Part shown: in pieces, positions 21,016-22,755 of the stretch
Layout of the letters: each line of letters starts with the position of its first letter
How positions within the stretch are numbered: the stretch's first letter is position 1
Assembly: GCF_003797765.1 (NCBI RefSeq)
Contig: NZ_RKMB01000016.1
Span: 1 to 64,000 of the forward strand
DNA from: Ramlibacter sp. WS9
GTDB taxonomy: Bacteria; Pseudomonadota; Gammaproteobacteria; Burkholderiales; Burkholderiaceae_C
Reading direction: 5' to 3'
Length of the DNA: 64,000 bases
The notes under the pieces: generated by a model
Database searches by the model: none
The model's input: the letters and a program-made list of their open reading frames with translations, nothing else
Told to the model about the DNA's origin: nothing
Made by a program: the position numbers and the translations under genes

Positions 21016-21348
21016 TTAAAGCACTTGGTGCGGCAGCGGCGGCAGGCCGTGGCGCGCCCGGGCGGTGTTGCAAGCCGGGCTGCCGGCCTCGAATTCGCGG
21101 CAAGGGGAAGGGCGCCATTCATAGATGCCGCACGTGACGCGCTGGCCGAGCGTGCCCGTGAGGGCAGCGCAGCGCGGTGGCGAATGGTCGGTGCCGCGCA
21201 TCCGGCAGGTGGCGCCCGTCACCTCCACGGCCAAGCCGTCCGGAACGCAACCGCCCTGGTCTTCCAGCTCATCCACGGCGAAGTCCACGCGGAAGCTCGC
21301 GCAACAGGCGCCACAGGCGAGGCACGGGTGGCCGGCCGGTTCAGCCAT
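21016..21348 (-). CDS. YkgJ-family cysteine-cluster protein
   Basis: A 110-aa protein of the YkgJ/CxxCxxCC family. The N-terminal [15 protein letters not shown] and later cysteines ([37 protein letters not shown]) form the putative zinc or Fe-S cluster pattern. Biochemical role unknown for the family. Start [12 protein letters not shown] at 21348 gives the usual N-terminus. It is divergent from the SOS-box gene, with 84 bp between the starts. Confidence 0.88.
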
Positions 21349-21369
21349 GGCGGTCAACCCGCGCCCACG

Positions 21370-21399
21370 TTGACGCGTTGCGGTAAAACTGTATATAAA
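21370..21399 (+). promoter_or_regulatory. Sigma70-like promoter for the 21433 gene
   Basis: TTGACG at 21370-21375 followed by TATAAA at 21394-21399 (18-bp spacer) or TATATA at 21392-21397 (16-bp spacer). The -10 lies inside the LexA-like palindrome, the classical arrangement for SOS repression. Confidence 0.65.
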
Positions 21400-21406
21400 T
21401 ACAGTC
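21387..21406. promoter_or_regulatory. Putative LexA/SOS box
   Basis: CTGTATATAAATACAG at 21389-21404 fits the gammaproteobacterial/betaproteobacterial LexA consensus CTGT-N8-ACAG, with an all A/T centre and a near-consensus flank (AACTGT ... ACAGTC). It overlaps the -10 element and lies 29 bp upstream of the ATG at 21433. It could in principle also affect the divergent YkgJ-type gene. Confidence 0.75.
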
Positions 21407-21432
21407 ATTCATCTCTTCATCAGGAGGAAAGC

Positions 21433-21804
21433 ATGGAACTTCAGACTGCACGCCAGATTATCGACACCCTGTCCCAGGGCGTGGACCCCGTCACCGGCGA
21501 GACGATGCCCGCCGACAGCCCGTACAACGAGCCGGCCGTCATCCGCGCCTTGTTCACGGTGTCGCACGCGCTTGAAGGCAAGCTGGCTCGCATGCAGCGG
21601 GCGCAACCTCGCAACGCCGGCAAACCCTGGGTGACCGACGAGGACGCGCAACTGGTGGCCGCGCATCGCGAGGGCAAAGACGTGAAGCAGATGGCCGAGC
21701 AAATGGGCCGCACGCCTTTCGCGGTGGAGTCGCGGCTGGTCAAGATGGGCCTGCTGCCGCCGCGTCCCGGCATGCGCATGATGGCGCCGACCGCAGCAGC
21801 CTGA
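21433..21804 (+). CDS. Putative SOS-controlled protein with Myb/HTH-like C-terminus
   Basis: A 123-aa protein of no named family that I can place. The N-terminal ~50 residues (QIIDTLSQGVDPVTGETMP, then YNEPAVIRALFTVSHALE) resemble a short module seen in front of helicase- and DNA-related proteins, from memory only. The C-terminal half (PWVTDEDAQLVAAHREGKD, then MAEQMGRTPFAVESRLVKMG) looks like a SANT/Myb or resolvase-type helix-turn-helix, so DNA binding is likely. A strong AGGAGG site lies at 21422-21427. The promoter carries a LexA-type box, suggesting induction by DNA damage. Start is firm; function is inference. Confidence 0.8.
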   Translation: MELQTARQIIDTLSQGVDPVTGETMPADSPYNEPAVIRALFTVSHALEGKLARMQRAQPRNAGKPWVTDEDAQLVAAHREGKDVKQMAEQMGRTPFAVESRLVKMGLLPPRPGMRMMAPTAAA

Positions 21805-21807
21805 AGG

Positions 21808-22755
21808 TCAGCCGACCTTGCCCAGCAGCAGGTATTCCATCAGCGCCTTCTGCGCGTGCATGCGGTTCTCGGCTTCGTCCCACACCACGGACTGAGGGCC
21901 GTCGATCACGTCGGCTTCGACTTCTTCGCCGCGGTGGGCGGGAAGGCAGTGCATGAAGAGCGCATCGGGCTTGGCCACCCGCATCATGTCGGCGTCGACG
22001 CACCAGTCGGCGAAGGCCTTGCGGCGCGCCTCGTTCTCGGCCTCGTAGCCCATGCTGGTCCACACGTCGGTGGTCACCAGGTCGGCGCCTCGGCAAGCGT
22101 CCATCGGGTCCTTGAAGACCTTGTAGCTCTGGCTGCTGCGAATGCCGGCGATGGCCTGGTCCACCTCATAGCCCGAAGGCGTGCTCAGGTGCACCGTGAA
22201 GCCCAGCAGGTCGGCGGCTTGCAGCCAGGTGTTGGCCATGTTGTTGCCGTCGCCGACCCACGCCACGACCTTGCCCTTCAGGTACGCCGGATCGGGCAAG
22301 CCGTCGGCGTTGGCGCCGCGGTGCTCCAGCAGCGTGAACAGGTCGGCCAGGATCTGGCACGGGTGGAACTCGTTGGTCAGGCCGTTGATCACCGGCACGC
22401 GCGAGTGCTGCGCGAAGCGCTCGATCTTGTCCTGGCCGAAGGTGCGGATCATCACCAGGTCGACCATGCGGCTGATCACCTTGGCGCTGTCCTCGATCGG
22501 CTCGGCGCGGCCCAGCTGGCTGTCGCCGGTGGTGAGGTGCACCACGCTGCCGCCCATCTGGTACATGCCGGCCTCGAAGCTCACGCGAGTGCGCGTCGAG
22601 GCCTTCTCGAAGATCATCGCCAGCGTGCGGTCGGCCAGCGGGTGGTACTTCTCGTAGGCCTTGAACTTCTTCTTGATGATGGCCGCGCGCTGGAACAACC
22701 AGGCATATTCGTCGGCCGAGAGGTCGCTGAACTGGAGGTAGTGTTTGATCGCCAT
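21808..22755 (-). CDS. argF: Ornithine carbamoyltransferase
   Basis: Cytosolic arginine-biosynthesis enzyme joining carbamoyl phosphate to ornithine to give citrulline. 315 aa. Carbamoyl-phosphate loop ASTRTRVSFE, then HPCQILADL and the C-terminal ornithine-binding HCLPAHRGEEV are all intact. It follows argD on the same strand with a 7-bp gap, a two-gene arginine operon. Its 3' end is 3 bp from the end of the convergent SOS-box gene, with no room for a terminator between them. Confidence 0.97.
   Translation of the reverse strand: MAIKHYLQFSDLSADEYAWLFQRAAIIKKKFKAYEKYHPLADRTLAMIFEKASTRTRVSFEAGMYQMGGSVVHLTTGDSQLGRAEPIEDSAKVISRMVDLVMIRTFGQDKIERFAQHSRVPVINGLTNEFHPCQILADLFTLLEHRGANADGLPDPAYLKGKVVAWVGDGNNMANTWLQAADLLGFTVHLSTPSGYEVDQAIAGIRSSQSYKVFKDPMDACRGADLVTTDVWTSMGYEAENEARRKAFADWCVDADMMRVAKPDALFMHCLPAHRGEEVEADVIDGPQSVVWDEAENRMHAQKALMEYLLLGKVG

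Follow-up and report, generated by a model that had tools for sequence, protein, structure and literature searches.

A mutagenesis cassette of the composition lexA-imuA-imuB-dnaE2 (imuC) was reportedly described by Erill et al. in 2006. The available portions of PMC3901139 present the imuA-imuB-dnaE2 cassette as a widespread alternative route to damage-induced mutation and list its genes as lexA, imuA, imuB and dnaE2/imuC. For the betaproteobacteria, the available part of PMC3323433 gives the core of the LexA regulon as lexA, recA and imuA-imuB-dnaE2, plus a splB-type gene, and predicts two further unnamed SOS genes, i.e., hypA, whose homologues are confined to multi-chromosome beta species, and hypB, present in Burkholderia only. 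The SOS-linked families SRAP (YedK/YoqW) and ImuB-C were found through linkage to umu, imu and lexA operons (excerpts of PMC3765255), and the damage response of Myxococcus xanthus involves a transcriptional regulator, DdiA, that acts as an activator of dnaE2 and an inhibitor of recX (excerpts of PMC12288472). Here, we analyze a 64,000-nucleotide stretch of DNA from Ramlibacter sp. WS9 (contig NZ_RKMB01000016.1, positions 1 to 64,000; “the window”), in which a gene of 123 amino acids lies behind a LexA/SOS box and belongs to a widespread family with no Pfam or NCBIfam model of its own, here called FAM. We propose, with a probability of roughly 0.8, that this is a LexA-repressed SOS gene, and that its unrecognised family supplies accessory genes to the lexA/imu mutagenesis cassette and to the recA locus.

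FAM would be an additional gene relative to the cassette as listed in PMC3901139, and the window genome itself is unlike that cassette, in that imuA-imuB-dnaE2 (L251, contig C147), lexA and FAM (C77) occupy three separate loci, with the C147 imu genes lacking FAM. The window genome resembles the betaproteobacterial regulon, as far as the available text of PMC3323433 describes it, in having exact LexA boxes at lexA, imuA and a PA0069/SplB-like gene; FAM is set apart from hypA and hypB by the descriptions given there, since a widespread family fits neither of them. The likeness to SRAP and ImuB-C (PMC3765255, excerpts) is one of neighbourhood argument only, the families themselves being different. 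DdiA offers a model for how FAM might act but differs in belonging to the XRE family and in being induced independently of LexA according to the accessible text of PMC12288472, and we claim no sequence relation between the two.

The 123-amino-acid gene is encoded on the forward strand, from an ATG at 21433 to a stop codon at 21802-21804, and the box ends 28 bp before this ATG. The features of the locus are:

21389..21404, no strand: LexA/SOS box CTGT-N8-ACAG, CTGTATATAAATACAG, with perfect half-sites; extended form AACTGTATATAAATACAGTC at 21387-21406
21433..21804, + strand: 123-amino-acid gene of the unnamed family FAM, putatively under LexA control
21433..21585, + strand: N-terminal domain, residues 1-51, with the motif G..P.TGE......S...P...RAL
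21604..21753, + strand: predicted C-terminal GcrA/Myb-like helix-turn-helix, residues 58-107, from Pfam profile and predicted fold
21422..21427, + strand: Shine-Dalgarno sequence AGGAGG, from the sequence
21376..21383, + strand: conserved, putatively -35-like element CGTTGCGG, from the box-anchored promoter alignment
21353..21358, no strand: conserved GTCAAC element, 36 bp upstream of the box
21016..21348, - strand: divergent ykgJ-type CxxCxxCC gene (Pfam PF03692), a neighbour that the box does not track

An earlier reading of this DNA (the sequence-only reading) had recognized an SOS-consensus box with perfect half-sites, starting at 21387, i.e., the box plus its two flanking bases; we verified CTGTATATAAATACAG at 21389-21404, and it is the sole CTGT-N8-ACAG in the window. 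The bare pattern by itself is weak evidence and not significant, with 46 sites genome-wide versus 28 for the reversed pattern. The extended palindrome, unlike the bare pattern, is strong evidence: a search of the 6.98 Mb genome for 20-mers with no more than three mismatches to TACTGTATATATATACAGTA returned two sites, one being the box of the 123-amino-acid gene and the other lying at a radical-SAM gene; the reversed control at the same threshold returned 0. The box at this gene is real and not a chance palindrome.

Conservation of the box in orthologous promoters, the check that the sequence-only reading had proposed, bears this out. Our named-genome and own-genus samples overlap, and their counts are not additive. 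Among the named loci of the window's own clade (L019-L039), 20 of 21 carry an exact box that lies 22-37 bp upstream of the ATG; at the remaining one (L022) a contig end cuts the promoter, and the second half-site alone is visible. The other 154 kb of these 21 loci contain no box at all. We analyzed a gap-free, box-anchored alignment of 23 promoters (own-clade named loci plus the window, L100 and L102, with L101 omitted as a duplicate of L037), all of which hold the box by construction; the half-sites are invariant in 23 of 23, at 2.0 bits, and information outside the box averages 0.87 bits in the 45 bp before it and 0.29 in the 14 bp after it. Within the own genus, 41 of 60 genomes contain the 123-amino-acid gene, and leaving out one broken gene (G713) and one truncated promoter (L174) gives 39 readable promoters, of which 35 have an exact CTGT-N8-ACAG (the window, L100-L102, 25 of L169-L195 and 6 of L206-L214), two a box with one mismatch (L177, L208), and two (L207, L210) CTGGAT-N4-ATCCAG at the box position, a symmetric change that preserves the palindrome. 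This last form resembles the candidate site before recA of the window genome (L133), where CTGG-N8-CCAG is the only candidate, and it is possible that CTGG-N8-CCAG is an alternative form of the LexA site in this genus. Outside the own clade, the named set includes 12 loci from beta- or unclassified proteobacteria. An exact box lies no more than 250 bp away at six of them (L040, L047, L054, L055, L057, L073), one has a box with one mismatch (L052), and five have none within this distance (L046, L053, L064, L070, L072); none of the 47 other named loci has an exact box. L103 and L104, two distant relatives that come from the window's own family but from a different genus, have neither a box nor an SOS neighbour.

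The gene is flanked on one side by a divergent group, which we take from its reading frames to be kynurenine-pathway genes and in which the ykgJ-type gene is nearest, and on the other side by argF-argD. The suggestion that the ykgJ-type gene could share the control is favoured by the short, 84-bp intergenic region common to both genes in the window, and a stronger version of it would have the box serve ykgJ (or kynB), with the 123-amino-acid gene a mere bystander. Against this, the box is retained at five own-clade loci where ykgJ was not found, four with kynB adjoining (L020, L021, L025, L031) and one with neither ykgJ nor kynB within 4 kb (L023). Conversely, argF was located in 18 of the 19 own-genus genomes lacking the 123-amino-acid gene, and the box is absent from all 18 of these argF stretches (1.5 kb each side where the contig permits), although ykgJ is still present in nine and kynB in four more, with neither seen in five; one of these gene-less loci (L259) retains a 25-amino-acid relic of the gene. 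The box comes and goes with the 123-amino-acid gene, not with the divergent ykgJ, since it is kept without ykgJ and missing from gene-less loci that retain ykgJ. Shared control thus did not hold up, and the bystander explanation is very improbable. We consider it just as improbable that the palindrome is a chance occurrence or another regulator's site: 0.52 bare sites are expected by chance in the 64-kb window, but the box is conserved across diverged promoters, shows a paired change to CTGG...CCAG in two of them, is lost together with the gene, and is identical in motif to the boxes before lexA and imuA.

The promoter layout drawn in the sequence-only reading was partly right. Its proposed -35, TTGACG (21370-21375), is not conserved among the aligned orthologues; the conserved -35-like element is instead CGTTGCGG. 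Among 25 promoters of the genus, its GTTG begins 12 bp ahead of the box in 20, and the GTCAAC element is found at its 36-bp distance in 23 and is also kept in loci without ykgJ. No site emerged from a strict sigma-70 scan covering 21300-21900. If CGTTGCGG serves as the -35, the -10 would fall inside the box or at its edge.

The window genome contains one LexA over the Pfam cut-off, with the recognition helix GFKSANAAEEHL, versus GFRSPNAAEEHL in PDB entry 7b5g, which we take to be the LexA of E. coli; by this comparison, the host LexA matches in DNA recognition. Its lexA promoter has two boxes, one exact and the other with a single mismatch. Further exact boxes lie before imuA-imuB-dnaE2 and before two integron integrases, which score over the NCBIfam cut-off, as well as before a UvrD/PcrA-type helicase, parE and a PA0069-type radical SAM gene, whose translations are partial and score below theirs. 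Taken with the conserved box, this sequence evidence makes it very likely that the 123-amino-acid gene would be under LexA repression and expressed on damage. As a separate observation, the two integrases (both TIGR02249) are different genes, each behind an exact box (L115:364-1401, contig C133; L122:495-1520, contig C104). At the PA0069/Rv2578c-type radical SAM gene (L119:1498-2999; C123:13497), the best NCBIfam model is intein-containing and the LexA box overlaps the start codon region; at L121 (C107:53104), an exact box lies 23 bp before the parE-like gene (topoisomerase IV subunit B).

A survey of the order places the family among SOS genes. In an even sample of 399 genomes, searched at E <= 1e-10, 40 contain FAM, the window's genome included, and for every one of these 40 genomes we examined the surroundings of a single copy, to differing depths; second matches in G410 and G533 were left out, and a second match in G644, on a 3.3-kb contig, had no SOS neighbour. 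FAM occurs in three types of context: it adjoins lexA on one side or the other, usually with imuA-imuB-dnaE2 to follow; it lies near recA; or, as in the window, it stands by itself with a LexA box of its own upstream. SOS genes lie beside it in 29 of the 39 other genomes (lexA in 21, recA in eight). The 21 lexA clusters have FAM within 0.9 kb of a same-strand lexA, 14 in the order FAM-lexA and seven in the order lexA-FAM, and as in the described cassette imuA follows in 16, with imuB seen in 14 (14 of the 16 were read for imuB) and both imuB and dnaE2 in 10. These FAM-bearing lexA-imu clusters run on one strand with a LexA box mostly at their head: upstream of the first gene of the 21 clusters, we found 14 exact boxes and four with one mismatch, two promoters having none and one being unreadable. 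At L217, L225, L235, L244 and L246, no imuA match follows lexA/FAM within the stretch read. In the family f30, 6 of 10 genomes have two abutting LexA boxes, 16 bp apart, before the cluster; such boxes precede FAM-lexA at L149, L163, L168, L196, L197 and L199, the second often ending in GC-rich CCGGACAG. The neighbouring lexA is the sole LexA DNA-binding match over the Pfam cut-off in 7 of 9 lexA-linked genomes tested, and NCBIfam verified ImuA, the error-prone polymerase and RecA in one example each.

In the eight recA-linked genomes, five copies follow recA on the same strand, with alaS next in 3 of 3 where it was looked for, one (L203) starts 52 bp past the recA match, again on the same strand, and two, placed between alaS and recA, are on the opposite strand at distances of 1.2 and 2.7 kb from recA; at L223, FAM follows recA and a small frame that is recX-like by eye. 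The remaining 10 of the 40 have no lexA or recA link. Six of them are among the seven of family f23, with 11-14 kb read in two cases and 1.5 kb on either side in four; in another, FAM sits between frames taken by eye for glgA and glgC, and a further three complete the group. Among the named loci, L052-L055, L057 and L073 show the FAM-lexA arrangement, and of 47 others only L083 (Peristeroidobacter) has an SOS neighbour among the genes searched for, dnaE2, placed tail to tail. On the Paraburkholderia conjugative plasmid pOLGA2 (L137), a FAM relative lies near an SOS-response-associated peptidase, with imuA 3 kb away. In a protein tree of 61 rows, whose backbone is poorly supported, contexts are clustered (9 changes versus 34.9 on shuffling), and the recA context requires four changes. 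FAM often keeps company with the SOS master genes in Burkholderiales, recurring in varied arrangements.

Members of FAM combine a conserved N-terminal domain of about 50 amino acids, predicted as two helices with a structured loop (pLDDT, the predicted local distance difference test score, 94), with a predicted GcrA/Myb-like helix-turn-helix. Pfam Myb_DNA-binding (PF00249) scores 18.1 bits against the window protein, below its gathering cut-off of 24.4, and the GcrA model PF07750 gives no match to it up to E 1 but matches 3 of 110 family members at E <= 0.01. The predicted C-terminal fold resembles the GcrA and Myb DNA-binding domains, and its helix-turn-helix superposes on that of GcrA (5yiu) at 1.4 A over 46 residues. 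The proposal of a DNA-binding protein with a helix-turn-helix in its C-terminal half thus agrees with the predicted fold, at a sub-threshold Pfam score, and that of a possible DNA-binding SOS gene is supported by this fold and the conserved box; as modelled, the protein probably acts by binding DNA.

In undamaged cells, LexA would sit on the box, covering both the spacer of the promoter and its -10 region, immediately past CGTTGCGG; on DNA damage, RecA filaments would promote LexA self-cleavage and the 123-amino-acid gene would be expressed. Its helix-turn-helix would then bind DNA, the conserved N-terminal domain may pair with itself or with a partner, and FAM, made alongside LexA, RecA or the error-prone polymerase, could set the duration or strength of the mutagenic phase. 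We tentatively favour, at slightly under even odds, a DNA-binding auxiliary of the damage response that tunes transcription of SOS and mutagenesis genes after LexA is gone. We prefer this to the less likely role of a DNA-binding accessory of ImuA-ImuB-DnaE2 or RecA, not a transcription factor, whose helix-turn-helix holds the machinery on DNA. Such an accessory would suit the lexA-FAM-imuA cluster at L232, where 13 bp separate the end of the FAM match from the imuA match behind it, the copies close behind recA (L203, L223) and the presence of ImuA over the cut-off in 21 of 22 genomes tested. However, two own-genus genomes (G738, G740) carry ImuA without FAM, and therefore the cassette does not need FAM; moreover, the five lexA clusters without a following imuA match, and the copies without SOS neighbours, also speak against it. 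A different explanation, that the family is a passenger, i.e., a mobile or selfish gene settling in LexA-controlled loci with no damage-response role, is improbable. It would account for the patchy spread (the family sample has it in 3 of 141 genera and the order sample in 17 of 159), plasmid-borne copies in 14 records and one copy near a frame resembling an integron integrase by eye (L234), but the own-clade locus is long-standing, with argF adjoining in 19 of 21 named loci and ykgJ/kyn genes on the opposite side in 19 of 21, SOS linkage recurs in varied arrangements in separate parts of the weakly supported tree, and 50,697 phage records contain no FAM match, with viral contigs giving matches only at the level of the helix-turn-helix, in four.

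FAM is undescribed in our full-text literature searches and in the available portions of PMC3765255, PMC3901139, PMC3323433, PMC12926913 and PMC2864759, although Erill et al. 2006 may mention it; the text of PMC3765255 has 0 mentions of Myb and of HTH, and one of helix-turn-helix, which concerns LexA. Within the literature searched, the statement that this gene is not among the known SOS genes stands. LexA control is of a known kind, and what seems to be new is the family as a recurrent extra gene of lexA-imuA-imuB-dnaE2 clusters and recA loci. The family also illustrates how a partner in the SOS response can go unnoticed for want of a Pfam or NCBIfam model. More speculatively, and on balance doubtfully, FAM could give Burkholderiales a second DNA-binding regulator dedicated to the SOS response, one that is expressed together with LexA or RecA and sets the level or timing of error-prone repair once LexA is destroyed; if so, the lexA-imuA-imuB-dnaE2 cassette would be a five-gene unit in many of these bacteria. 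A conserved DNA-binding gene that occurs in the imu operon, near recA, or alone behind a LexA box would be a component or regulator missing from the picture so far. That many relatives of the 123-amino-acid gene within the order adjoin the master genes of the DNA-damage response suggests that a part of the SOS response has been overlooked in bacteria.
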